From positions 185,001 through 249,000 of the forward strand of contig PUQB01000223.1 in NCBI GenBank assembly GCA_003024785.1: 64,000 bases of DNA, given 5' to 3'. The DNA is from Selaginella tamariscina (taxonomy: Eukaryota > Streptophyta > Lycopodiopsida > Selaginellales > Selaginellaceae). This document shows, in pieces, positions 11,118-63,097 of this stretch (position 1 is the first letter of the stretch; the number at the start of each line of letters is the position of its first letter). The notes under the pieces were generated by a model that was not told where the DNA came from, made no database searches, and saw only the letters and a program-made list of their open reading frames with translations. A program made the position numbers and the translations under genes.

Positions 11118-11611
11118 TGTCACAACCCGATACAAAATACATGACACGCCTACAGGATACGGGGTACAAGATATGCCTACAGGATATACCCCGATACAGC
11201 ATACAGGACACACCTACAGGATACGGGATACAGGATATGCCTACAGGATATACCTACAGGATATGCCTACAGGATAAGGGACACCATTTTTAGCATCATG
11301 CCTAGATTAGCCCTTGGAGTACCATTTTTTAGCTCATGCCTAGATTAGCCCTTGGAGACCATTTTTAACTCATGCCTAGATTAGCTCTTGGAGTTGTGAG
11401 CATAAAAGCTCCGACCTAATTGTTGTACAATCAGTTATTATCAACACCAGTCATTCTATGATCATTCTTGTCTTGTTCCTTGTTCTTGTCTTGCTCCTTG
11501 TTCTTGTCTTGCTCCTTGCTCTTGTCTTATTCCTTGCTCTTGCCTTGCTCTTGTCTTGCTCTTGAGTCAAACCTCCTTGTTCTTATCCTGCTCTTGGGTC
11601 ATGGCTTGACA
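11118..11611 (+). repeat. Family T LTR (T1 5' LTR)
   Basis: TGTCACAACCCGATAC...GGCTTGACA. An ATAAAAGCTCC box near 11,402 is followed about 30 bp later by CAGTTATTATCAA (11,432-11,444), the predicted transcript start. The 13 bases at 11,614-11,626 just inside the LTR pair with it, counting two G-U pairs. Confidence 0.85.
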
Positions 11612-11705
11612 GTTTGATAGTAATTGCTTTTATAGCTCCCCGATTTTCGGTTACTTTTTTCTTAGTTCTTCTCCCTTGTTTTCCCCCTTCTTTTTTTCAC
11701 ATATC

Positions 11706-12480
11706 ATGGCAGATTTCGAGCAATTTCAATGCGAGCACCAAATGTTACTTCATGAGCTGGCCACTTTGCGTCAAGTGGTCACAGATTTGCAAGGTTCCAC
11801 CAACGCGGTGCATGCAGCTGCTGATGCATCCTCCAAGGCTGCTGCGCAGGCTCTCTCCCATGCGTCAATGGTTTGCTTTACATCGAACTCTTCTTTGGAG
11901 CCAAAGATCAGCATGCCGAAGAAGTTTAGTGGTAATCGCGCCGATTTTCAAGATTTCCTGAATCAGATCAGGCTTCTGATCCGCATGCAACCACGCCCCT
12001 ATTCGACCGATGCACAAAAGGTTGGCCTTTTGGCATCCTTACTAGTCGGATCCCCATGGGCTTGGGTTGCCCCTTTGCTAGAGCATGACGACCCATTGAT
12101 GAAAAACTTTGAAGGATTCATGGCTGCCTTTGAAGCCTGCTTTGGAGATCCCGATAAGTACCATTCCGCATGCACAAAGTTAAGGAAGCTCGCACAAGGA
12201 TTCCGACCAGCTTCCCTTTATGCATCCAAATTTCAGCAACTTTGCATGAACATTCCATGGGACAAGACTGCATTGATCGAACATTTTCGTTTTGGGTTGA
12301 AGGATGACATGAAGGACCTTTTCCTTACGTTACCGGATGCCCAAACCTTAGCAGAGATCATGCAACAAGCCGTTTGCTGCAACAACCGTTTGTTGAAGAT
12401 GCGCATTTGGAACCTGCGACAACCGTTTGTTCGCTGCGACAACCAGTTGACTGCCTTTCGGACTTACAAATGCGAGAGAT
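11706..12480 (+). pseudogene. T1 gag (matrix/capsid part)
   Basis: The start is MADFEQFQCEHQMLLHELAT at 11,706, the same start as T3 gag. Capsid motifs FSGNRADFQDFLNQIRLLIR, GSPWAWVAPLLEHDDPLM and FEACFGDPDKY are present, then ALIEHFRFGLKDDMKDL. The frame stays open past the deletion junction into pol-derived residues ([14 protein letters not shown]), giving a 372-residue gag-pol chimera frame. The nucleocapsid zinc knuckle is lost in the junction. A short duplication of the CAACCGTTTGTT segment precedes it. Confidence 0.8.
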
Positions 12481-12489
12481 GTACAAATC

Positions 12490-14057
12490 CCGCATATGAC
12501 TGTCAAAAGCAAGTGTTGTTGGGTCCTGATCGATTTTGGCTTGTGGCACTACAGGTTCATCAGGCTCCAGCAAATTCAACACTTTTACAAGGCATCTGTT
12601 TGCAATTGGCTACAGACGACTTGGTGAAGAATGTGTTCTCACACATTAGTCCTGACATCGCAAGCTCCTCTTCCTCCAATTCCCGTACAGACTACAAAGC
12701 TATTTGCCATACAGGACGGACTCCTATACCGGGAGGGTCTCATGTACGTTCATGTTGGTGTTTACAGGACTCATGTGGTATAGAATTATTATGATACCCC
12801 AGCTACATGACATTTTGGTGTGGCCAAGATAGTTGAGTTGGTGACTCGCAACTATTGGTGACCTGGGTTGCGAGGTTTTGTGGAAAAGTTTGTACAGAGT
12901 TGTGACACCTGCAATAGGTCGAAGATGCCTCGTCATGCGCCCTCTAGTCTTCTTCGTCCTCTTCCTATTCCCTCTGTTCCTTGGAGATCCATCTCTATGG
13001 ATTTCCTCACATATCTTCCTCCTTGTGGATTTGATGCAGTTCTTGTGGTGGTTGACCGTTTTACCAAATAGGCTTATTTTCTGCCCTATAACAACATGGC
13101 TACAGGCCAGACAACTGTTGAATTAATGATCCGCAAAGTGTTCCGACATCATGGTCTTCCTGAGAGCATTGTTTTTAATCGAGGCCTACAATTCATGTCC
13201 AAATTTTGGCGAGAGCTTCTCCGAAGTTTACAAGTTAAAGCAGATCTTTCTTCAGGATATCATCTGCAAACTAATGGGCAGTCATAATGCACGATTCAGA
13301 CCTTGGAGCAGTATCTTCGTTGCTTCATCAGCTACCAACAGGACAACTAGTTGGACCTTCTTTCTATGGCGGAGTTTGCTTACAACAACTCCGTTCACGC
13401 ATCTACAAGCCAAACACATTTTTTCGCTCTTACAAGCTACCATCCACGTTTTGACTTTGCTCCTCCTTCTTCCGCTCCTGCAATACAGGATCATCTCCAA
13501 CATCTTCGTCAGGTACAAGATGATCTCCGAGTTCATCTTTAGCAGGCACAGGAACGGTACAAGCGTCACATTGATGCTCATTGTTAGCCGGCACCTACAT
13601 ACAAGGTTGGTGATCTCGTGTGGCTTCTTCATCGGCATATCCGCACCAACAGGCCTTCTTCTAAGTTGGATTTTCAACGATTAGGCCCTTACAGGATTGT
13701 GACTAAGGTCAATCCTGTAACTTTTCGACTAGAGCTACCATCTACTATGAAACTTCATCTTGTGTTTCACACCTCTTTGTTGGAGCCGTATCATCCTTCT
13801 TTTCTTCCTAGTTGTACTTCTTCTCCTCCCCTTCTGTGGTCATTGACGATGAACTTGAATACGAAGTTGCAGCCATCCTTGATTCTCGTCTTCATCGCCG
13901 CCAGCTTCAATACTTGGTGAATTGGAAAGGTTACTTGCCTTTTAACCGCACTTGGGAACCTGCATCCAATTTACTCCACGCTTTTTCCAAGGTTGCTACC
14001 TTCCACCAACATTATCCTGCTAAACCAAGTCCCAGGACTCGTGGAACTCGTCCTTAG
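12490..14057 (+). pseudogene. T1 integrase and chromodomain, broken
   Basis: Integrase parts occur in shifting frames. They are the zinc-binding CDTCNRSK segment near 12,905, the first catalytic Asp in SMDFLTYLPP near 13,000, [12 protein letters not shown] near 13,140, the GPYRIVTKVNPVTFRLELPS (GPY/F) segment near 13,690, and the chromodomain [20 protein letters not shown] at about 13,860-14,000. Several TAG/TAA stops and frameshifts interrupt it. The purine tract AGGGAGGAGGTAC follows just before the 3' LTR (polypurine tract). Confidence 0.8.
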
Positions 14058-14068
14058 GGAGGAGGTAC

Positions 14069-14358
14069 TGTCACAACCTGATACAGAATATAGGACACGC
14101 CTATAGAATACGGGATATAGGATATGCCTACAGGATATACCTACAAGATAAGAGACACCATTTTTAGCTCATGCCTAGATTAGCTCTTGGAGTTGTGAGC
14201 ATCAAAGCTCCAACCTAATTGTGTACAATTAGTTGCTATTAACACCAGTCGTTCTACGATCATTCTTCTCTTGCTCTTGTCTTACTCCTTGCTCTTGTCT
14301 TGCTTCTTGTCTCGTCTTGTTCTTTGTTCTTGTCCTACTCTTGGGTCGTGGCCTAACA
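14069..14358 (+). repeat. Family T LTR shared by T1 (3') and T2 (5')
   Basis: TGTCACAACCTGATAC...GGCCTAACA, 290 bp. It is shorter than the other T LTRs, mainly through loss of upstream repeat units. AGTTGCTATTAA (14,231-14,242) in the predicted transcript start pairs with TTGATAGCAACT (14,361-14,372) just inside, with one G-U pair. Confidence 0.8.
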
Positions 14359-14462
14359 ATTTGATAGCAACTCCCTTCATAGCTCCATGATTCCCCGGTT
14401 TTTTTTGACGTCACTTCTTCCCTAGTTCTTCTTCTATGTTTTCCTCATTTCTTTCACAAATC

Positions 14463-14684
14463 ATGGTGGATTTCAAGCAATTCCAACGCAAGCACCAAAT
14501 GTTGCTTCATGAGCTAGCAAAGTTGTGTCAAGTGGTCACAAATCTGCAAGGTTCCACCAACGTGATGCATGTAGCAACTGATGCATCCTCCAAGGTTGCT
14601 GCACATGCCCTCTCCCATGCATCAGTGGTTCCTTCTCCACCGAATTCTTCTTCAGAGCCAAAGATCAGCTTGCCGAAAATCAGT
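14463..14684 (+). pseudogene. T2 gag, 5' fragment
   Basis: It starts MVDFKQFQRKHQMLLHELAK at 14,463 and runs to PKISLPK, then jumps into family A pol (TLLELRNRITECLRTHKEVF). It corresponds to the first ~75 residues of T gag. Confidence 0.8.
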
Positions 14685-14689
14685 TCCAG

Positions 14690-16214
14690 GACGTTGTTGG
14701 AACTCCGAAATCGCATTACCGAGTGCCTGCGAACCCACAAGGAGGTGTTCGCATGGACATATCATGACCTACGGGGCGTGCCACCAGAACTGTGCCAGCA
14801 CCGGATCAGATTGAAGCCCGACACGCAACCTAGTTGACAGCAGCGTTACCGTATGAACCCCAACTACGCACGGAAGGCTAAGCAGGAAATTGACAAGTGA
14901 CTGGAAGCTGGTTTCGTCTACCCCATCAAAATCCCAAATGGTTGTCCCCAATTGTCATCGTGCCGAAGAAGGACGGGCGACTCAGAATCTGCATAGACTA
15001 CAGGCAGTTAAATGCTGCAACGGAGAAGGACCCGTTTCCGATTCCATTCACCGAGGTCATTTTGAAGGACGTAGCAGGGCACGAGATGTACTCCTTCATG
15101 GATGGCTTTAGCGGGTATAATCAAGTCCGGATCGCCAAGGAGGACCAACCAAAGACGGTGTTCATCACCAACTAGGGGGCATTCACCTTCAAGGTGATGC
15201 CCTTCGGACTTTGTAATGCCTCCGCCACGTTCTAGAGACTAGTCCAGCGAGTGTTCCCGGACAACCTGACAGATTCGGTCCAGGCGTTCCTCGACGACTT
15301 CACAGCATACGAACCAGCGGAAGATCATATAACTTGCCTAGAATGGGTCTTTCGGCATTGCCAACACTATGGTATATCCCTTAACCCATCCAAGTGCGTG
15401 TTCGGAATGACTGCAGGGAAGTTGTTGGGGCACATCGTCTCTAAGGAAGGCATCACCGTAGACCCTAGGACGGTACAAGCAATAGCGGACATGCCGCACC
15501 CAAGGAACGTTACGGAGCTTCGACGATTCCTAAGGAAGGCGGGCTTCTACCGCAAGTTCATTAGGCAGTACGCCGGCAGGGCCCAGCCAATGACGGAGCT
15601 TCTCGCGAGAGAGTCCCCGTACAAATGGATTGATGAGCGCCAAAGGGCGTTCAAAGACATCAAGCGCCAGTTGTAGAAGCACCCATTCTCGAACCACCTG
15701 ATTGGGACCGACAGTTCCACCTGCAGACAGACGGATCCAACGTAGCGGCAGGAGCTGTGTTGTCACAGAAAGATGAGATGCGGATGCTTCGGCCAATCGC
15801 GTACGGGAGTCGGCTCATGACACCGGCGGAACGTAACTACTCGGCGACAGACAAGGAGTGTCTGGCAGTAATATATGGGGTATCGAAGTTCCGCCACTAC
15901 CTCTTAGGTAACCACTTTGTGCTAGTGGTGGATCATCATGCACTATTGTACCTCGTCAACAAGCCACAACTGACAGGATGACCTGCTAGATGGATCCTTC
16001 TACTACAGGAATTCGACTTCACGGTGGTCCACAAAGAGGGTAAGCTTCATGTTTCTCCTGACTTGCTATCAAGGATACCTAGCGGCAAACGACCGAAATC
16101 CGCCCCTCTCCTCGACATACCGGATGCAGACATCCAAAGCAGCGGCGGTACACGGGGAACCCCAAGCGCCAACAGCCCACGAGGCGCCGAAGAGTGGCTG
16201 GAGTGGCAGTCGCC
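14690..16214 (+). pseudogene. Family A reverse transcriptase-RNase H, broken by stops
   Basis: RT motifs in order: WLSPIVIVPKKDGRLRICID (14,940-15,000), MDGFSGYNQVRIAKEDQ (15,100), VMPFGLCNASATF (15,195), and the catalytic box FLDDF near 15,290 (the FLDD form of YxDD). The connection follows, then RNase H with DGSNVAAGAVLSQ (15,730) and TDKECLAVIYGVSKFRHYLL (15,850-15,910). TAG codons interrupt at 15,173, about 15,235 and 15,674; the first two stand where Trp and Gln are expected, so they fit single C-to-T or G-to-A changes. The frame runs to the T3 insertion at 16,214. The frame before T3 and the frame after it are in register once T3 and one copy of its target duplication are ignored. Confidence 0.85.
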
Positions 16215-16716
16215 TGTCAAGCCACGATCCAGGAACCAGGAAGCAAGTAGGATTCGAGAACAGGAAGGCTTGACTCAGGAACAGGACCGAGAGCAGGACA
16301 TGAACTAGGAACAGGAACAGGACGGATCCAAGAACAAGACAGGATCCGGGAGCAAGACAGGAGCAGGAGGCAAAGAGTAAGACAAGAACAAGACAAGAAC
16401 AAGGAACAAGAATAATCGTAGAATGACTGGTGTTGATTGTAACTGATTGTACAACAATTAGGTCGGAGCTTTTATGCTCACAACTCCAAGCTAATCTGGT
16501 CATGAGCCTAATCTAGTCACTAGCCAAAATTGGTCATCCTTATCCTATAGGAATATCCTGTAGGAATATCCTGCGGGAATATCCTATGAGAATATCCTGC
16601 GGGAATATCCTGTGGCATATCCTGTGGGAATATCCTGCGGGCCGAAATCCTGTATCGCATATCCTGTAGGCTAAATCCTGTATGTCGTATCTTGTATCCT
16701 GTATCGGGTCGTGACA
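16215..16716 (-). repeat. T3 3' LTR
   Basis: Minus strand TGTCACGACCCGATAC...GGCTTGACA. Seven 12-13 bp units of the type GGAATATCCTGCG (plus strand) lie near 16,550-16,640; the 5' LTR has eight. The polypurine tract TAGGGAGGAGGTGC adjoins at 16,717-16,730. Confidence 0.9.
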
Positions 16717-16727
16717 GCACCTCCTCC

Positions 16728-19229
16728 CTAAGGACGAGTTCCACGAGTCTTGGGACCTGGTTTAGCAAGATAACGCCGATGGAAAGCAGCAACTTTGGAA
16801 GAAGCATGGAGTAAGTTGGATGCAGGTTCCCAAGTGCGATCGGTAGGCAAATAACCTTTCCAATCCACCAAGTATTGAAGTTGACGACGATGAAGACGAG
16901 AATCAAGGATGGCTGCAACTTCGTACTCAGGTTCACCAGCAATGACCACAGGAGGGGGAGGAGAAGAAGCACGACCAGGAAGAGAAGAAGGATGATACGG
17001 CTCCAACAAGGAGGTGTGAAACACAGGATGAAGTTTCACCGTAGGTGGTAACTCGAGTCGGAAAGCTACAGGATTTACCTCCGCCACGATCATGTAAGGG
17101 CCCAATCGTTGAAAATCCAACTTAGAAGAAGGCCTGTTGGTGCGAATGTGTCGACGAAGAAGCCACACGAGATCACCAATCTTGTATGCAGGTGCTGGTT
17201 GACGGTGAGCATCAGCATGATGCTTGTACCGTTCCTGTGCCTGCTGAAGGTGAACCTGGAGATCATCCTGTACCTGCCGAAGATGCTGAAGACGATCCTG
17301 TACTGCAGGAGCGGAAGAAGGAGAAGCAGGAAGAGCAAAGTCAAAACGTGGATGGTGACCTGTAAGAGCAAAGAAAGGTGTCTGGCCTGTAGATGCGTGA
17401 ATGGAGTTGTTGTAGGCAAACTCCGCCATAGGAAGAAGGTCCAACCAATTATCCTGTTGGTAACTGATGAAGCAACGAAGATATTGCTCCAAGGTCTGGA
17501 TTGTGCGTTCTGACTGTCCATCAGTTTGCGGGTGATATCCTGAAGAAAGATCCGCTTTAACCTGTAGACTCCGAAGAAGCTCTCGCCAAAACTTGGACAT
17601 GAATTGTGGACCTCGATCGGAAACAATGCTCTCAGGAAGACCATGATGTCGGAACACCTCACGGATCACCAATTCGGCAGTTGTCTGACCTGTAGCTGTC
17701 TTGTTGCAGGGTAGGAAATGAGCCTGCTTGGTGAAACGGTCAACCACCACAAGAACTGCATCGAATCCACGAGAAGGAGGAAGATCTGTGAGGAAATCCA
17801 TAGAAATGGATCTCCAAGGAGTAGAAGGAACAGGAAGAGGACGAAGAAGACCAGAAGGTGCATGACGAGGCATCTTCGACCTGTTGCAGGTGTCACAACT
17901 CCGTACAAACCTTTCCACAAAACCCCGCAACCCAGGCCACCAATAGTTGCGAGTCACCAACTCAACTGTCTTGGCCACACCAAAATGTCCTGTAGCCGGA
18001 GTATCATGACAATCCTGTACCACACGAGTCCTGCAAACACCAACAGGAACGTACAGGAGACCTTCCCGATACAGGAGTCCATCCTGTATGGTGAACAGGT
18101 TGTAGTCTGGACGGGAACTGGAGGAAGAGGAACTTGCAACGTCAGGATGAATGTGTGAGAACACATTCTTTGCCAAGTCGTCTGTAGCCAACTGCGAACG
18201 GACGTCTTGTAGGAGAGTTGAATTTGCTGGAGCCTGATGGACCTGCAGTGCCGCAAGCCGGAATCGATCAGGACCCAACAACACTTGCCTTTGACAGTCA
18301 AATGCAGGATCGCCCGGGCTTGGTGCAAGGTAGGAGCGCCTAGACAATGCGTCCGCCTTGCCATTCCGAAAACCGGGCCTGTAGACGATGACGAAGTCAA
18401 AACGTGATAGGAACTCCGCCCACCTAGCCTGTCGCCGACTGAGAACTCGAGCCGTTCGAAAGTACTCCAGGTTCTTGTGATCCGTAAGAACTTGTACAGG
18501 ATGTGCAGCACCTTCCAGGAAATGCCGCCACTCCTCAAACGAATCCACAATGGCCTTGAGTTCCTTGTCATGAATCTCGTAATTGATCTCCGCCGACAGG
18601 AATTTACGAGAGTGAAAAGCTACAGGATGAAGCAACTTGTCCTCTCCAACTTGCGATAGGACGGATCCTACTGCAAAATCCGAGGCATCTGCTTCAACGA
18701 AGAAAGGACGAGAAGGATCAGGATGTGCTAAAATCGGAGCTGTCGTGAAGGTGTCCTTGAGTGTTGTGAATGCATGTTCCGCCTTGTCGGACCAAGAGAA
18801 AACCTCTGTGCGCTTGGTGAGTTCCGTGAGTGGAAGTACACGCTTGGAGAAGTCCTGTATGAATCGCCTGTAGAAGTTTGCAAAGCCAAGGAAACATTGT
18901 ACATCTCGTACAGACTTGGGCCTCTCCCACTCCACGATGGTCTTCACCTTGTGCATGTCCATGGAAACGCCAGCAGGAGAGACGATGTAGCCCAAGAACT
19001 CCACAGAATCCCTATCGAAAAAACACTTCTCCAACTTCGCATACAAGCCATGCTCACGAAGCCGCTGTAGAACCAACCGTACATGCTTGTCATGTGCCGC
19101 CTGGTCCTTGGAGAAAATCAAAATGTCGTCAAGGTAGATCACCACAAACTGGTCCAAGAAGTCACGAAAGATGTCGTTCACCATATGTTGGAACACGGCT
19201 GGGGCATTGGTAAGGCCGAAAGGCATCAC
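16728..19229 (-). CDS. T3 pol, 3' part: RT catalytic half, RNase H, integrase, chromodomain (833 aa open frame)
   Basis: This part of the polyprotein copies element RNA into DNA and inserts it. It begins inside RT at [14 protein letters not shown]. The RT catalytic YLDD is at residues 32-35. RNase H starts near residue 175 ([13 protein letters not shown]). The integrase zinc finger includes [10 protein letters not shown] and CDTCNRSK. The D,D,E core is in [19 protein letters not shown] and [15 protein letters not shown] segment ([20 protein letters not shown]) follows. The last ~70 residues are a chromodomain ([29 protein letters not shown]), which in chromoviruses is thought to guide integration to marked chromatin. 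All catalytic residues I can check are present. The true protein would start upstream: a one-base loss near 19,288 separates this frame from the first half of RT. Confidence 0.9.
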
Positions 19230-20720
19230 CGTGTACTCGAAGTGTCCATACCTTGTACGAAAGGCAGTCTTCCACTCATCGCCGGACGAATCCGTACAAG
19301 GTTGTAGGCCCCTCGTAAGTCGATCTTCGTGAACACCTTTGCTCCTCGCAGCCGATCGAGAAGTTCCGGGATCAATGGCAACGGGTACCGATTCCGAATG
19401 GTAGCTTGATTCAAACCCCTGTAGTCCACAACCAAACGTAAGCTCCCATCCTTCTTCTTGACAAAGAAGATTGGCGCTCCTGCAGGGGACTTTGAGTGAC
19501 GAATGAAGCCGGATGCCAAGTTGTCCTCGATGTATTGGCGAAGAACCTCCAACTCTGTGGGTGACAATGCGTAAATCGGTCCGAACGGTGGGGTCTTTCC
19601 TTCTGCAAGATCAATAGGACAGTCGTAGGACCTGTGAACAGGAAGAACTGTAGCCTTGTGCTTGTCAAAAACGTCCTTAAAGTCGTGGTACTTGGATGGT
19701 AGAGAAGAAGGAGGAGAAGGAGAAGGAGTAGGTGAAGGAGATTGAAAAACAGGAGAGTCAGACACAGGAAAGGTAGAAGAGGACGTAGGAGTTACTTGAA
19801 AGGCAAAAAGGTGGAAAGGAGCAGGATCAGTGGTAAGTTCATGCATGGTAGTGGTAAGAACTCGGAGAGGAGCAGGAAGGAGCTGTGATTGAAAAAGAGG
19901 AAGGATCTTGGGGGGTGGAATAGAAAAGAGTAATGAAAAGAAGCAGGATTGGAAGAAACAGATGTGGATGTTGACAAGTGTACAGGATTGGAAGAATCCT
20001 GTACAGAAGTCCGTGGATGCACAGGAGTGAGGAGAGCCTGTGAATGTGCTGATGGATCAACAGGAGGTGGATCCTGTTGAGGAGGAACCTTCGACACTGA
20101 TACAGGATTGGAAGAACCCTGTACAGGACACCGCAAACTTACAGGAGTGGAGAAAGCCTGCGGATGTGCTGAGGAACTGACATGAGGTGAATCCTGTCGA
20201 GCAGGAGTCTTCAACACTGGTACAGGAACAGGCACGGTCAATCCTGTAGCTTGTACTGCCTCAGACACCAAGGATGTATCCTGCACGCAGGAAGGTACAG
20301 GGTTGATCCTGGCTGTTGGAGAGGAAAACGTGAGCGTCCTAGACCTCCAGTCGATCTGCGGATTTGCAACAACGAACCATGGCATGCCAAAAATGATGGG
20401 AGTCGACCGAGTCTTGATCAGTTGAAGGAAATCGAACAGTTGAATGCACCATGATTGCAAGAGAGAGGTGTGGTAGCGTGGGTAACTGCGCCAGAAGCAA
20501 TCAAACGACCATCGGCCACCTCTACAGGAATTGCATGCTTCAACTTCACCACCGGAATGCCATGCTGAGCTGCAAAAGTGTCATCCATGAAACATGCATT
20601 TGCACCAGTGTCTAACAGGGCAAACTCCTTGAGCTCTCGATTATTGAGGCGAATGTGTACAGGAAACTTGAGTGATGGAATGGTATGAGTAGCACCAATG
20701 GAGCCTGCACCTACGTCCAA
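19226..20720 (-). pseudogene. T3 protease, Pro/Ser-rich spacer and N-terminal RT, split by frameshifts
   Basis: The protease, LLDTGANACFMDDTFAAQHG, lies at 20,600-20,660 and has an intact DTG. Its frame ends near 20,418, where T4 has one more T (TTCAACTTGATC against TTCAACTGATC). A ~200-residue Pro/Ser/Thr/Val-rich spacer with repeats of the PPQQDPP and SAHPQA type runs to ~19,800; its frame changes once more near a C-rich run at about 19,910. RT begins near 19,700 ([20 protein letters not shown]) and includes [20 protein letters not shown]. The frame breaks again near 19,288. The long low-complexity spacer between protease and RT is present in all T copies. Confidence 0.8.
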
Positions 20721-21708
20721 CTTCGCGGCTCCTAGACGAAGTGGACATTGAAGTTTTCCGGCTGAACTTCAGCTTCGGCTTCACGCGCCTTGAACTTCCT
20801 GGCTTTATTAGGACATTCCGCCACCTTGTGTCCTGCTGCACCACAATACAAGCATAGGTTCTCACCCCGTCGACGTTGTTCTCAGCAGTTGAAAGTGGGC
20901 CACGCTTGGAATTGTTAACCTCCATAGGAACTGCTCCAGAAGGTGTCGCAGGAACATGTGCTACGGCTACAGGATTGGCTGGCAGGAACTGCTGACGGAA
21001 TTTTTCCTGACGGCGCTCGAACAAACGGTTGTCGCAGCGAACGGCCTGTTGCATGATCTCCGCTAACGTTTGGGCATCCGGTAACGTAAGGAGAAGGTCC
21101 TTCACGTCGTCCTTCAGCCCAAAACGGAAATGTTCGATCAATGCAGTCTCGTCCCATGGAATGTTCGTGCACAATTGCTGGAATTCGGATGCATAAACGG
21201 AAGCTGGTCTGGATCCTTGTGTGAGCCTCCGTAACTTTGTGCATGCAGAACGGTACTTATCAGGATCTCCAAAGCAGGCTTCAAAGGCAGCCACGAAACC
21301 TTCAAAGTCTTCCATCAATGGGTCGTCACGCTCCAGCAAGGGAGCAACCCAAGCTCGTGGAGATCCACTTAGTAAGGATGCCAAAAGGCCAACCTTTTGT
21401 GCATCCGTCGAGTAGCGGCGTGGTTGCATGCGGATCAAGAGCCGGATCTGATTCAGGAAACCTTGGAAATCGGCACGGTTGCCACTGAACTTCTCTGGCA
21501 TGCTGATCTTCGGCTCCGGAGAAAAGTTCGATGAAGAAGGAACCACCGATGCCTGAGAGAGAGCCTGCGCAGCAGCCTTGGAGGATGCATCAGCAGCTGC
21601 ATGTGCCGCATGGGTGGAGCCTTGTAGATCGGTGACCACTTGGCGCAAAGTGGCCAGCTCATGAAGCAACATTTGGTGCTCGCGTTGAAAGTGCTCAAAA
21701 TCAGCCAT
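20641..21708 (-). CDS. T3 gag (355 aa open frame; C-terminus frameshifted)
   Basis: The start is MADFEHFQREHQMLLHELAT at 21,708. It is a particle protein with a helical N-terminus (residues 1-60) and a gag capsid domain at about 75-240 (ISMPEKFSGNRADFQGFLNQ, GSPRAWVAPLLERDDPLMED, FEACFGDPDKYRSACTKLRR). RRQEKFRQQFLPANPV follows. The zinc knuckle CLYCGAAGHKVAEC is encoded near 20,820-20,865 but in another frame, so the last ~70 residues of this open frame are not native. In T4 the knuckle and the protease can be read in one frame, which suggests the family encodes a single gag-pol polyprotein. Confidence 0.85.
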   Translation of the reverse strand: MADFEHFQREHQMLLHELATLRQVVTDLQGSTHAAHAAADASSKAAAQALSQASVVPSSSNFSPEPKISMPEKFSGNRADFQGFLNQIRLLIRMQPRRYSTDAQKVGLLASLLSGSPRAWVAPLLERDDPLMEDFEGFVAAFEACFGDPDKYRSACTKLRRLTQGSRPASVYASEFQQLCTNIPWDETALIEHFRFGLKDDVKDLLLTLPDAQTLAEIMQQAVRCDNRLFERRQEKFRQQFLPANPVAVAHVPATPSGAVPMEVNNSKRGPLSTAENNVDGVRTYACIVVQQDTRWRNVLIKPGSSRRVKPKLKFSRKTSMSTSSRSREVGRRCRLHWCYSYHSITQVSCTHSPQ

Positions 21709-21794: not shown

Positions 21795-21807
21795 CAGTTA
21801 CAATCAA
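21795..21807 (-). other. T3 putative self-primer binding site
   Basis: Minus strand TTGATTGTAACTG lies two bases inside the 5' LTR end, where a tRNA primer site is expected. It is a perfect 13-base complement of CAGTTACAATCAA inside the LTR (minus strand, plus coordinates 22,029-22,041 in the 5' LTR and 16,433-16,445 in the 3' LTR), ~30 bp downstream of the ATAAAAG box. No resemblance to the usual TGG-starting tRNA sites is seen. Confidence 0.7.
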
Positions 21808-21809
21808 AC

Positions 21810-22318
21810 TGTCAAGCCACGATCCAGGAACCAGGAAGCAAGTAGGATTCCGAGAACAGGAAGGCTTGACTCAGGAACAGGACCGAGAGCAGGACAGGAA
21901 CTAGGAACAGGAACAGGACGGATCCAAGAACAAGACAGGATCCGGGAGCAAGACAGGAGCAGGAGGCAAAGAGTAAGACAAGAACAAGACAAGAACAAGG
22001 AACAAGAATAATCGTAGAATGACTGGTGTTGATTGTAACTGATTGTACAACAATTAGGTCGGAGCTTTTATGCTCACAACTCCAAGCTAATCTGGTCATG
22101 AGCCTAATCTAGTCACTAGCCAAAATTGGTCATCCTTATCCTATAGGAATATCCTGTAGGAATATCCTGCGGGAATATCCTGCGGGAATATCCTGTGAGA
22201 ATATCCTGCGGGAATATCCTGTGGCATATCCTGTGGGAATATCCTGCGGGCCGAAATCCTGTATCGCATATCCTGTAGGCTAATCCTGTATGTCGTATCC
22301 CTGTATCGGGTCGTGACA
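21810..22318 (-). repeat. T3 5' LTR
   Basis: Boundaries TGTCACGACC and TTGACA (minus strand). It carries the ATAAAAGCTCC promoter box, the predicted transcript start and eight GGAATATCCTGYG units at about 22,145-22,250. Confidence 0.92.
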
Positions 22319-23610
22319 TCGCCAATATGTCAATACCTCAGCGTCGGACCGGGCGGCCCGTCGCGAACGTCCATTACCCAAAGACGAAGTCTCGCACGAA
22401 GGTGCCTACCATTCCAGCTGATTGGCGATCAGCTGTATAAGAGGGGAAGGAACAATGTCCTCCGAAGATGCCCTCAAAGCTGGGAGATCCCCGAAATACT
22501 TAGAGCAGCACACGAGGGACCGGGTGCTAGACATTTTGGGGGGAGAAGACAGCTAGGAAGATCCTGCAGACAGGATTATGGTGGCCAATGATTTTTCGTG
22601 ATGCCACCAGGATGGCTAGGAGCTGCAGCAACTACCAGCGAATCGGACGACCGATGACCCACCAAGGCATCGAATACCACCCATCAGTAGGGATGTTCGC
22701 ATTCGAGAAATGGGGCCTAGACTTCATTGGGCCGATCAACCCGAAGGCCCAAACGACAGGAGCCAGGTATGTAGTAGTAGCAACGGACTATGCTACAAAG
22801 TGGGTAGAAGCGAAGGCGTTGAAAAACGCAACGACGGGGCAGACAGCCAAGTTCATCTATGAAAACATCCTAACAAGGTTTGGCTGTCCGCTGGAGCTGA
22901 TATCAAACCAAGGGAGCCATTTTATCAACGAAACAATTCGTGAACTGGTCAACACCTTCGTAATCAAGCATCACACCTCGACGGCATACTACCCACAAGG
23001 GAATGGACAAGCAGAGTCCACCAACAAAACCCTGGTGACGATCCTGAGGAAAGTCTGCCATAAGGAACCCGGCAATGGGAGGAGGTGCTGCCATCCGTCA
23101 TACTATGGGCCTACCGGACAACCTTCAAGACAGCAACTGGTGCTACGCCTTTCCGATTGGCATACGACCTAGAGGCAATCATGCCTTGGGAGTTCACTAT
23201 CCCGAGTCTGCGGTCAAGCCTGGCAAATAAGATCACGGACGAACCGACGGTCACCCAGCAATGAATGGAGCAGCTAGAACGACTGGACGAGGAACGGTTT
23301 GCAACATAGCTAACAAGGGAAACTCGCCAACAACAGGAGAAGCAGCAAAGGGACAAGACGAAGAAACTTCGCACGTACGTACCAGGCCAATGGGTATGGT
23401 GGTACAAGAAGCCGCAGGAACTCCGAAAGGGCAAGTTCAGACTAGGGTGGAAAAGGCCGTATGAGATCCTGGAGGTCTTTAACAACGGAACGGTGCTACT
23501 GGGCATCAACGGACAACCACTTAAATAGAAGGTCAATGGGAACCATCTGAAGCCGTACATCCACCCCATCAGCGCATCGAACGGGGCAGCCCGACGTGAA
23601 GAAGCGAAGG
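22319..23610 (+). pseudogene. Family A integrase, frameshifted
   Basis: The sequence continues the pol frame interrupted by T3. It includes LIGDQLYKRGRNNVLRRCPQ, AAHEGPGARHFGG and WWP of the zinc-binding region. The core follows: WGLDFIGPINPK (first Asp), RYVVVATDYATKWVEAKALK, CPLELISNQGSHFINE (Asn where the second catalytic Asp is expected) and STAYYPQGNGQAESTNKTL (Glu). The tail runs to about 23,600 in changing frames, with YVPGQWVWWYKKPQEL-type sequence near 23,380-23,430. No chromodomain follows. The lost Asp (TCAAACCAAGG near 22,905) fits a G-to-A change. Confidence 0.8.
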
Positions 23611-33259: not shown

Positions 33260-35398
33260 TCATGTTCTTCCTTCGGTGGACGACGTATGTGATCTGCAAC
33301 CCATTACCATCATTGACTTGCATATAAGATCATGTCGAAGTTCAGAACTCAATCCCAGTATAAATTCCGGATGTCCGGTCTTGGCTGTCGTCCTCCTCAA
33401 CCTCGTCTGAGGCTTCATGCCAGCAGCCGCACAACGTCGATGGTACCACAGATCACACAAGTCGCACTGGATCCAATCACTGTCAACAGCCTTATTATGG
33501 CACTCCCAGCAAAGAACCTGGATGCAAGCAAAAAATCGAAAAGAGAAGAACAAATACCAAGACTTTACCTCCTTATTCAGGTCCTCAATGCCTTCAATCT
33601 ATCATCACCTTTGCAAGCTGACTAGATAGGCACCTGAAAGGCATGGTAACATAATAGTAGTTGCCTCCGCTGGTGTTGTACGAGCACCAATCGTCCGTAT
33701 CAATAACCCAGAGCAACACTTTCTCCCTCTTCTCACCATCAAATACCTCTTCAGCCTTCTCAACTGTCTTGTCGTGATGCTCTTCCGCATTTCTTTGGAT
33801 TGATATTTGCACAGCCATAAGGAACTTGCGATCTCTGTAATAAACGTCAATACCAGCATGACAACAACTCCTTGGTACGAATAATGTTCCTCCTTCGGTT
33901 TCTTCCGGTTCAGCCTCCAAAGTGGACCTGAACATTTGGCCTTCAAAACTCAGCACACGCCTTACATCGAGTTGGACACATTTGTCTGTTTCATAATAAA
34001 CGTTGCATGTGAAGAACTTCATCGCCAAAATAGCCGCCATTTCAGCATTCAGGCCAATGCGAGACCTGAGCTCATATCTGAAAATTGGTTGCATCCATAC
34101 TGCAAGCTCTTTGCACTTTGAACCAAGGTCCTGAAGTTCCAACATCTCTGTTATCCTGGCCTTAGCATATTGCAATAATCCGGGAGTCAGCATTCGAGCA
34201 ATCCATCCTGACCTCTGTAGAAGCACCTGGACTCGAGGAAGGGATGAGTCTCTCCACCTGGAAGGACCCGCCAACTCGCCACGCAAGCGTTCTGCGTCCG
34301 GGCCCTGTAAAACCTTCACCAAGAACTGGTTGATGCTGCCTTGCAACTGCTTCATCCTGTCCTTAAAAAGAGCACCGTCTGTCGCACCATAGTCTCTGAT
34401 TAACCTCGGTACGGTTCCAGTCTCACGAAGATTGGTCCTAGTGATATCAAAACGTTTTTAAGAAACAAGCCAACTCCTCCCCTGCGACCAACAAACAAAA
34501 TCGAGATGTTCAAAGACAACATGAAGAAACTTACGTTGAGTCCCCCACAACCAGTTCAGTCCATAGCTTTGGGGTGCCGCATCACGTCTATCCACTCCGA
34601 CGACACAGAGGCACAGAAGATTACTGGGCAGTACTTGCGAAGCAGAGACAGTAGATTGTGTGCATCGCCACGACGCTTGATTTTGTTGCCATCGTCGACC
34701 ACAACGATCAAATGTTCCTTACTCGCGGTCATAAAATCTTCTAGTGCATCGCGCGTCACTGTCTGCATGGATTCGAGTTCGCTCAGTGCAGCCTCGTATC
34801 TGAGTATGACTGGAACAAAGCCCTCCTGAGCACAGCCATGGGCGATATCTCAAAGTCTTCGCCTTTGAGAAACAGGATGCGATGCATCCGGCTTGTACCT
34901 CCCTTAGCCCTCTCTGCAAACTTGCCGTAAAGGTAGAGTACACTTGCCCGAAGGCTCCAGGTTTTACCAGCGCCAGGGGTGCCTGTGATGAAACTGAAGC
35001 CATACTCATCGTCTGAATAAAATAATCCAACGGGGCCTTAACATCTTCTGCAATGACTAAATCTTGGGGATAGGCAATCCTGTACAATATAAACCCACCA
35101 AAGAGATAACTGAGGAGACTGCTACCAAAAACAACTGAGTACCTATGCCTCGGTCCTTGGAGATGAAATCGATAAGACGTTTGGTGAGGGCGCGTCCCAT
35201 GTGAACAGATCGACCTGGCCTGTCCATTCTAGGAATCCAAGTCACATGCTTCGGCTCCGAAAGCTTTCGAGAGTAAGCGCCCTGTAATACTGCATGAGCT
35301 CCACATGCCGCTCCTTTGCGCCGGTTAACTTCATCCGCTTCGCACCTGCAGCCATGGAACACTCTAAATGACTGCACGAGCACACTAGGGCTGACCAT
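33260..35398 (-). pseudogene. Crinkler/RHS-like P-loop ATPase with REase-like domain and C-terminal PHD-like finger, frames broken
   Basis: It reads from 35,398 (MVSPSVLVQSFRVFHGCRCE). A 63-nt GT-AG intron lies at 35,080-35,142. Walker A GTPGAGKT is at 34,960-34,983, followed by LYLYGKFAERAKGG; Walker B LIVVVDDGNKI lies near 34,680-34,710. From 34,355 a 253-residue open frame carries AGIDVYYRDRKFLMAVQISI, which fits the Asp...Gln form of restriction-endonuclease-like folds in Crinkler/RHS proteins. After a probable 54-nt intron (33,518-33,571) comes CWECHNKAVDSDWIQCDLCD and WYHRRC, a Cys4-His-Cys PHD-type pattern. Crinkler/RHS proteins are known as oomycete effectors and trypanosome RHS proteins, with relatives in some early land plants. 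Frame breaks occur near 35,030, 34,850, 34,400 and 33,600, so it is a pseudogene or contains sequencing indels. It lies head-to-head with the MFP1-like gene, about 120 bp apart. Confidence 0.6.
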
Positions 35399-40004: not shown

Positions 40005-40409
40005 TGTCACGACCCAATACAGGATGCAGGATACAGGATACGGGTTACAAGATATGCCTATAAGATATACCTACATGATATGCATGCAAGATATTCCTAC
40101 AGGATATACTTACAAATATTCCTATAGGATATGCCTATAGGATATACTACAGGATATGCCTAGAGGATAAGGGTCACTATTTTTAGCTCATGACCAGATT
40201 AGCTTGGAGTTGTGAGTATAAAAGCTCCGACTAATTGTTATACAATCAGTTACTATCAACACTAGTCTTTTACGATCAATCTTGTTTTGTCTTGCTCCTT
40301 GCCTCCTGCTCGTCTTGTTCTGGTTCCTAATTCCTGTCCTGCTTCTGAGTCAAGCTTCCTTATTCTCGAAATCCTGCTCATTTCCTTGTTCCTGGATCGT
40401 GGCTTGACA
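40005..40409 (+). repeat. T4 5' LTR
   Basis: TGTCACGACCCAATAC...GGCTTGACA. TATAAAAG at 40,217-40,224 and, 30 bp on, CAGTTACTATCAA (40,247-40,259). Confidence 0.88.
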
Positions 40410-40411
40410 GT

Positions 40412-40424
40412 TTGATAGTAACTG
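40412..40424 (+). other. T4 putative self-primer binding site
   Basis: TTGATAGTAACTG is a perfect 13-base complement of CAGTTACTATCAA at 40,247-40,259. The T/A difference from T3 in the LTR (CTATC against CAATC) is matched by the A/T difference in the primer site (GATAG against GATTG). Confidence 0.7.
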
Positions 40425-45399: not shown

Positions 45400-45820
45400 T
45401 GTCACGACCCGATACAGATGCAGGATACAGGATACGGTTACAGATATGCCTATAGGATATACCTACAGGATATGCCTGCAGATATTCCTACAGGATATAC
45501 CTATAGGATATTCCTATAGGATATGCTATAGGATATACTACAGGATATGCTTAGAGGATAAGGGTCATTTTTAACTCATGACCAGATTAGCTTGGAGTTG
45601 TGAGTATAAAAGCTCCGACTAATTGTTGTACAATTAGTTATTATCATTATCAACACCAGTCTTTTACGATCAATCTTGTCTTGTTTTGTTCTTGTCTTGT
45701 CTTGTTCCTGGTTCCTAATTCTTGTCCTGCTCCATGTCCTGCTCCTTGCTGCTTCTGAGTCAAGCTTTCTTGTTCTTGGAATCCTGCTCACTTCTTTGTT
45801 CCTGGATCATGGCTAGACTA
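45400..45820 (+). repeat. T4 3' LTR
   Basis: It starts TGTCACGACCCGATACAG and keeps TATAAAAGCTCC near 45,606. The predicted start region now reads AGTTATTATCATTATCAAC, that is, with a small insertion. Confidence 0.82.
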
Positions 45821-61502: not shown

Positions 61503-61955
61503 GTAAGCTCTATATTTATAAATTCTGATCAAGATTTATAATTTTCTGTTTTCTTTTCTATTTCTTTATTTTTGGTGTGTTTTTATATAAATTGTGTTGA
61601 AATTTTACAGTTTTTGATTTTTCTTTTATTGTTTAATATCTTATTTTCTTTATTTATTTGATGTATGTTTTATATATTTTTATTAATTCTTTAATTTTCT
61701 TTTTTTCTATTTTGCTACTTTGATATATGTGTTTTTAATGTAAATACATAAATTATATATAATTAAGCTCCCTATCTTTTCATAAATACCAGATGTTCTG
61801 TTATGATTTTTTTAAATTTCTTTTGTAAATTCTATATTAATTTAGATTTTATATATTATTTTTAAATGTTTTAAAAATCGTTGTACATAGTTCTAGCATA
61901 GAAACATCCATTTTGTTTATAATATTATGTCAACTTACGCCTTTGTTTGTACTAG
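61503..61955 (+). other. 5'-UTR intron of the F-box gene
   Basis: GTAAGC...TTTGTACTAG, 453 nt and very T-rich. Splicing would place the first ATG of exon 2 at 61,960, so the upstream in-frame ATG at 61,927 is probably intronic. Confidence 0.55.
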
Positions 61956-61959
61956 TGGC

Positions 61960-63097
61960 ATGAGGAACTTGCGGGTGAGAAGACAGAAGGAGGATTATGG
62001 ATTTCATGAGTCTAAGTTCTTGCTACTCCCACCTGATTTACAGTGGGAAATCTTGAGCAAGCTTTCTCCGGAACAGATGGCACGTTCTAGGAGCATATGC
62101 AAATCATGGAAGGATGTCATTGATGCACACAAGGTCTGGTGCTTTGTGGTAATGAATTTGGTGGACAGGTATAGTTCTTGTTTGACAACTACTCAGCTTG
62201 GTCTGTATGATATCGCCTCTAACAACTGGTACAAGACAAGGGAGCTGTGGTTTTGTGGCTATGACAACATGCAACTTCTAGCGAGTGATGGTGATTATCT
62301 CCTCTTCACTAAATGGTCTAACAGTTTCAAGATCAATTTCATTGTTGTCAACATACGCACTAGAGAGGATTTCAGGTTGAGGACATCTCCATATAGCAAC
62401 ATATTGGCTGCCCATGTAATAAGAAAGAACTCAACTGGGAATTATACAGTGGTGTGCCTTGTTTCTAACAAGATGAAGGAGAATGTCAAAGAGACGGACA
62501 CCATTATTGCCATAGTCTACAACTCTTCTACACAGGTATGGGAGGAGAAGTCTTCCATAGTACACCTCTATCCCAAGGATACGTGCCTTTGCACTACAGC
62601 ATTTTGGAACAGAAGTATCTGGATGTGTGTCCATGGGCATGCATCTATTTTTGCAGTACAATGTGGATAACAATAGCTTTGTTACACACAATGCTGGAAT
62701 AGGTAGGGGCGGATCTCTTGTTGTGTGTGATGATGCCTTGTACGTGGTTATGTCAAGACCAATAGGTATAAAGAAGTTTAGACTGGATGGTTCTCGATTG
62801 TTAAACAATGATCCACCACTTCATCCAGTTCCAATTCGTCTGGATCAGCTAGAGGTGCAGTATTTATCATTGCGGGGAGTATGCAGTGATGGTGTGCGAT
62901 ATATATGGATGAATTTTGTAACTCCTTGCTATCGAGAGTTCTTTCTTAGGTACGATGTCGCTCTCAATACTTGGATCGCGTTGAAACCCCCACCCCATGC
63001 ACTTGGAAGAGTTGGCAGAATTGGTAAATCTCCATTTATAACATTCTCACGTATTCAAGGTTTTAATATCGGATGGATTGAGAAGAAGGATTTTTAG
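61960..63097 (+). CDS. F-box protein with C-terminal kelch/F-box-associated-type region (one frame change)
   Basis: F-box proteins are the substrate-binding subunits of SCF ubiquitin ligases. The start MRNLRVRRQKEDYGFHESKF is chosen because it follows the intron acceptor. The F-box is at residues ~25-60 (LPPDLQWEILSKLSPEQMAR, SICKSWKDVI). The ~310 residues after it have beta-propeller-like strands (LGLYDIASNNWYKTRELWF, SGDYLLF-type, VVNIRTREDFRL, AIVYNSSTQVWEEKSS). The frame changes by one base near 62,640-62,660 (HGHASIFAVQ against LFLQYNVDNN), after which it runs VCDDALYVVMSRPIGIKKFR and RYDVALNTWIALKPPPHAL to a TAG at 63,095. AATAAA follows near 63,144. The single break may be a sequencing error or a real defect. 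The target is unknown. Confidence 0.75.

Follow-up and report, generated by a model that had tools for sequence, protein, structure and literature searches.

A Tcn1-like chromodomain retrotransposon of Selaginella tamariscina with probable self-priming by the 5′ end of its own mRNA

Family T, a retrotransposon family with long terminal repeats (LTRs), was analysed in a stretch of 64,000 nucleotides of Selaginella tamariscina (contig PUQB01000223.1, positions 185,001–249,000 of the forward strand; hereafter the window), and is very probably a Tcn1-like (Tf1/Sushi-type) chromodomain retrotransposon whose reverse transcription is self-primed. Priming by the mRNA 5′ end had been proposed in a preliminary description of this DNA and is supported by the position and boundaries of the complementary segments, by compensating changes, by the lack of a tRNA 3′-end site and by a mutation hotspot at the binding site; the novelty implied there was overstated, because Neumann et al. 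(2019), in the passages available, had already predicted self-priming for the plant Tcn1 clade (PMC6317226).

Structure and copies of family T

Family T is a chromodomain Ty3/gypsy element. Along pol of copy T3 the domains run RVT_1, RT_RNaseH, Integrase_H2C2, rve, SH3_Tf2-1 and Chromo, and the chromodomain is thus C-terminal to reverse transcriptase, RNase H and integrase, the arrangement that defines chromoviruses. Judged by eye, it retains all three cage aromatics, Y, W and Y (YEV.., DWKGY), and is of group I. Group I chromodomains are described in the available text of one survey for Tcn1 elements of mosses and lycophytes, and also for two Selaginella Galadriel-type elements, so that they are not unique to Tcn1 (PMC3350952).

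The LTR pair of T3 differs at 2 of 495 aligned positions, and that of T4, an old copy, at 27 of 389 (coordinates in Table 1). The upstream portion of T3 pol falls in other frames, and T3 is therefore not an intact element. T1 is decayed and forms with T2 a tandem unit (LTR-internal-LTR-internal, window 11118–14686) in which the T2 site pairs with the middle LTR; for T5, no 5′ LTR was found within the window. Upstream of the TATA box, the LTRs carry arrays of a 13-bp unit in variable copy number (22137–22250, 40046–40169 and 45426–45560). Among the protein matches listed, the one named by organism was from the fern Ceratopteris richardii for gag (40%) and a chytrid protein for pol (54%, among 120 listed); scans of viral contigs gave no relatives.

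Table 1. Features of family T copies (window positions; PBS, primer-binding site)
Feature	Position	Strand	Remarks
T1 5′ LTR	11118..11611	+	
T1 primer AGTTATTATCAA	11433..11444	+	decayed
T1 PBS TTGATAGTAATT	11614..11625	+	
LTR between T1 and T2	14069..14358	+	
T2 primer AGTTGCTATTAA	14231..14242	+	
T2 PBS TTGATAGCAACT	14361..14372	+	
T3 3′ LTR	16215..16716	-	502 bp
T3 pol ORF, part	16728..19229	-	RT, RNase H, integrase, SH3, chromodomain
T3 gag ORF	20641..21708	-	Retrotrans_gag, DUF4939, Ty3_capsid
T3 PBS TTGATTGTAACT	21796..21807	-	2 nt past LTR end
T3 5′ LTR	21810..22318	-	509 bp, TG..CA
T3 self-primer AGTTACAATCAA	22029..22040	-	predicted mRNA +1 to +12
T3 target-site duplication GGCGA	22319..22323	-	partner 16210–16214
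T5 3′ LTR primer copy AGTTGCTATTAA	31499..31510	+	
T4 5′ LTR	40005..40409	+	
T4 TATA box TATAAAAG	40217..40224	+	
T4 self-primer AGTTACTATCAA	40248..40259	+	
T4 predicted second helix	5′ strand 40264..40278; 3′ strand 40394–40409 (LTR end)	+	48/1000 shuffles as low
T4 PBS TTGATAGTAACT	40412..40423	+	
T4 3′ LTR	45400..45818	+	end approximate

Pairing of primer and site

All eight stretches of T1–T4 quoted in the preliminary description lay where it had placed them. Pairing was complete in T4 and T3 (13 of 13), and the pairs outside the Watson–Crick type were G-U, as had been proposed: T2 has 11 Watson–Crick pairs and one G-U of 12, T1 has 11 and two G-U of 13. Two positions covary between copies, again in agreement with that description, namely +7/PBS6 (T-A in T4, A-T in T3) and +5/PBS8 (A-T in T4, G-C in T2). 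The T1 site pairs slightly better with the T4 primer than with its own. The TATA motif TATAAAAG, which had been given for the transcript start, occurs in the 5′ LTR of T4 only, T1 and T3 having CATAAAAG and T2 CATCAAAG.

In T1–T4 the site begins two bases past the terminal CA of the LTR, and the first primer base lies 31–33 nt after the TATA-like box, a distance from which the primer 5′ base is predicted to be the mRNA start. The primer is better described as 12 nt long with A as its first base than as 13 nt long, since base −1 often has no partner in PBS13. In three sets of copies, base −1 was paired in 28 of 32 (set A), in 11 of 30 plus five G-U (set B) and in 40 of 53 plus four G-U (set C); the weakest position from +1 to +12 had 25 + 1 (at +7), 23 + 4 and 45 + 5, respectively, so that base −1 is not the worst-pairing position in set A, in which at least one row was misplaced by the flank rule. 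Sets B and C together with T2 and two fern-type loci described below (L001 and L002) favour a primer start at A.

For each of ten elements, the pairing score was compared with those of 500 Markov-simulated LTRs; one simulation equalled the observed score in T1, in L002 and in L005, and none did so in the remaining seven. A chance origin of the pairing was rejected on this basis and on that of the permutation of primers and sites given below.

Search for a tRNA-type primer site

TGG, which a tRNA 3′-end site needs, is absent between the LTR and the gag ATG in T1–T4; past the LTR, TGG first occurs at position 95–106, inside the start of gag, so no tRNA 3′ end fits, and such a primer was rejected. 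The few tRNA-site strings tried, including the initiator-Met type, had no match in the window. In the accessible part of PMC6317226, the Tcn1 clade is delimited by a self-primer of at least 10 bp that starts 0–5 bp past the LTR, with no tRNA site; family T has this arrangement, its tRNA part being judged by the absence of TGG alone.

Covariation in genomic copies

Searching the genome with the leaders of T3 and T2 gave 2853 and 1277 candidates, of which 40 each were scored. A site-free pattern (LTR end, 8–20 free bases, leader; flanks exact) occurred at 547 places, and its reversed control at none. Among 100 of these 547 that were listed, the site measured 13 nt in 92, 12 nt in five, and 10, 11 and 15 nt in one each. 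From these 100 copies, 80 were fetched; both parts could be placed in 58, and the site was 13 nt long in 53 of these. Covariation at +7/PBS6 extended to these 53 copies, with T-A in 46, A-T in five, A.A in two and T.T in none (Fisher 7e-6, the copies being related). A joint count over the whole genome, limited to exact flanks with 190–220 bases between them, gave A7 primers with T6 sites 41 times and with A6 sites 11 times, the latter a mismatch in some young copies. Old copies had one-sided changes that resemble C-to-T decay.

From 160 copies, 32 were dropped, their flanks being unlocated (10 of 40 in set B, 22 of 80 in set C), as was L138 with its 15-nt site. In an earlier extraction, the dropped rows of set B included compensated T-A pairs at +6/PBS7 (L057, L061 and L070) and C.A mismatches at the same pair (L072 and L097).

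Base 13 after the LTR spacer, which follows the 12-nt site, varies between T copies and can be any of G, C, A and T; a C there might derive from copying of the mRNA cap.

Fern-type relatives and compensating changes

A scan of genome contigs for relatives returned ten loci, of which eight had been binned with an uncultured Trichormus metagenome-assembled genome (MAG), and a search of the Trichormus MAG added further loci. The fern Azolla harbours Trichormus azollae as its cyanobiont, and the chromovirus contigs in this bin are therefore probably fern (Azolla) DNA. A limited literature search found no report of a Tcn1 retrotransposon in Azolla.

Six loci (L001, L002, L005, L011, L013 and L016) carry a perfect complement of 11–12 nt two bases past the LTR, and their first primer base lies 32–33 nt after the start of the TATA box. 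The fern-type primers ACTCTTGATCAA, AAGGCGAACAA and AAGGTGAACAA each match their own site, with the layout kept. Primers vary among the families, yet all share the flank CACCAGT, which reads CACAAGT in L002 and L005, and an LTR that ends in ..ACA. Among seven distinct primer/site sets, both sides had changed at seven of 11 pair positions, and 2 of 5040 permutations, counting the observed one, paired the seven sets equally well in fixed register.

At the 5′ end of L004 there was no complement of at least 9 nt in the self-primer layout, and in the remaining loci of both searches no LTR-leader stretch with TATA box and self-primer was recognised; scattered matches of 9–12 nt there were taken as chance. 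L007 (1–330) and L008 represent a gypsy element in two bacterial MAG bins. The LTRs of L007 measure 181 bp, and a 9-nt LTR complement stands two bases past the LTR, its LTR match lying about 44 nt after a TATA box; this may be another self-primer or chance.

A mutation hotspot at the binding site

In 40 near-identical T3-type copies, of which 39 cover the primer, the 12-nt LTR primer had no changes and the 13-nt site was changed in 16. No copy was changed in the 25 nt that follow the site, and three were changed in the 30 nt before it; the median over 1348 windows along these copies was 1. Equally variable windows comprised one poly-T tract and two short stretches in which 34–35 copies differ from T3, the latter read as private changes of T3; with a shorter reference, a repetitive LTR tract was highly variable as well. 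The changes were found at site positions 5–6 (T>A in five, deletion of one T in four, deletion of TT in one) and 12–13 (G>C in three, deletions in three), with deletions in eight of the 40 copies. Position 6 distinguishes the T3 site from the T4 site, and positions 12–13 correspond to the 5′ end of the primer.

This pattern matches what primer copying with a heteroduplex would be expected to leave if the site were rebuilt from a copy of the primer. Independence of the changes is partly shown, since resolution is poor in the tree of 30 copies: on it T>A and G>C need three changes each, of which well-supported branches force one and two, respectively. In the wider set, length changes affected 8 of 100 listed sites and 4 of 100 listed LTR primer slots (the latter judged from coordinates), a modest genome-wide excess, and the hotspot therefore rests on the young copies.

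We tentatively propose, at a level that falls somewhat short of an even chance, that each cycle rewrites the site from the primer used, which would sometimes be RNA of a sister subfamily, and that in one fern-type group a hairpin with a U3 arm stops the primer copy of the 3′ LTR from competing. Rewriting from the primer used would account for young copies being changed at the primer 5′ end and at the subfamily-specific base. The site mutations might instead reflect gene conversion between subfamilies or assembly error, which bears on the rewriting step only and is rather unlikely: five of the 16 changed copies do have the site state of the other subfamily, TTGATAGTAACT, but the other 11 have other changes at positions 5–6 and 12–13, and none of the 40 copies is altered in the 25 nt that follow the site, with independence partly shown on the poorly resolved tree.

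Second helix and upstream hairpin

In all ten elements, folding energies allow a helix between the LTR end and the bases that follow the primer. The energy was reached by fewer than 5% of 1000 shuffles in eight of the ten and was not significant in T2 (173/1000) and L016 (205/1000). Some cross-family energies were as good as those within a family, which makes the second helix weaker evidence.

An arm just upstream of the primer forms a strong hairpin with it in L002, L005, L011, L013, L016 and the 3′ end of L004, a stability equalled by 0–1 of 1000 shuffles of the upstream sequence; in L011, arm and primer have changed together. No significant hairpin was present in T1–T5 or L001, and it was dropped from the model of family T. 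As a guess from folding, the hairpin, which would be confined to the 3′ LTR copy of the RNA, could mask the primer of that copy.

Proposed mechanism and alternatives

Transcription of family T would start at the A located about 31–32 nt after the TATA-like box, and the first 12 nt of the RNA would pair with the 12-nt site two bases inside the 5′ LTR. This pairing may be held by a predicted second helix that joins the R bases following the primer (AGTY..) to the terminus of the LTR (..GACA). The element's RNase H would then cut after ..CAA and free the primer 3′ end for minus-strand synthesis; plus-strand synthesis would copy the primer back into the site.

The inverted repeat of LTR and leader could alternatively be an RNA structure for packaging, dimerisation or translation, with another primer in use. 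Folding and compensation by themselves show pairing and not priming, and the second helix suggests an extended stem. We nevertheless regard this as very unlikely, since the paired segments are bounded by the expected start of the mRNA and by a point two bases from the LTR end, the place of a primer site, no tRNA 3′-end site is present there, and young copies are hypermutable at the site but not in its flanks or in the LTR primer. An internal segment of a host tRNA as the partner of the site, with an incidental LTR match, is more improbable still: half-tRNA priming is known in plant LTR elements, some copia elements among them (PMC6317226, available part), but each of four site types (T, L001, L002 and L011) has its complement in its own LTR, at a constant position downstream of the TATA-like box, and a tRNA would not track LTR changes. 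Self-priming by the mRNA 5′ end remains the preferred reading of family T.

Relation to known and predicted self-priming elements

The Tf1 primer comprises 11 nt, compared with 12 nt in family T. Like Tf1 of Schizosaccharomyces pombe and Tj1 of S. japonicus, family T has beside the 5′ LTR a site complementary to the mRNA 5′ end, which in family T is a predicted one; it differs from Tf1 in primer sequence and in being known from sequence alone, whereas experimental proof is stated to exist for Tf1 (PMC4600332). Hairpin priming of chromoviruses is mentioned in the portion available of a further source (PMC3601003). In plants, self-priming is also predicted for the TAR lineage (Houba, Osr-1), which is Ty1/copia, whereas family T is Ty3/gypsy (PMC6317226, relevant passages).

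With the Tcn1 clade, family T shares the three cage aromatics, the 5-bp target duplication, a T-rich leader, the lack of a tRNA site, predicted self-priming and a short element (6.1 kb in family T against 5.7 kb). It differs from Selaginella SM-Tcn1, for which Novikova et al. (2010), in the text available, reported no self-priming evidence (PMC2864245), and its relatives are probably from a fern. A limited literature search on self-priming retrotransposons of Selaginella found the studies of Neumann et al. and Novikova et al. only. A clear case in an apparent relative of SM-Tcn1 is useful despite the earlier prediction, because of that negative report, and self-priming of plant gypsy elements in the cited literature, as far as the available passages go, is a prediction from sequence. 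What the present analysis adds is the evidence of compensating changes, the members probably from a fern, the footprint at the site and the upstream hairpin in one fern-type group. Compensating changes and a footprint confined to the site make the mechanism testable from genome sequence, and the group is probably extended to ferns. Rewriting in trans, if true, would link subfamilies with common primers.

Other open reading frames in the window

A protein search with the 253-aa open reading frame at 33594–34355 returned no homologue at E 0.001. The open reading frame at 61897–62667 has an F-box domain and is probably a host gene.
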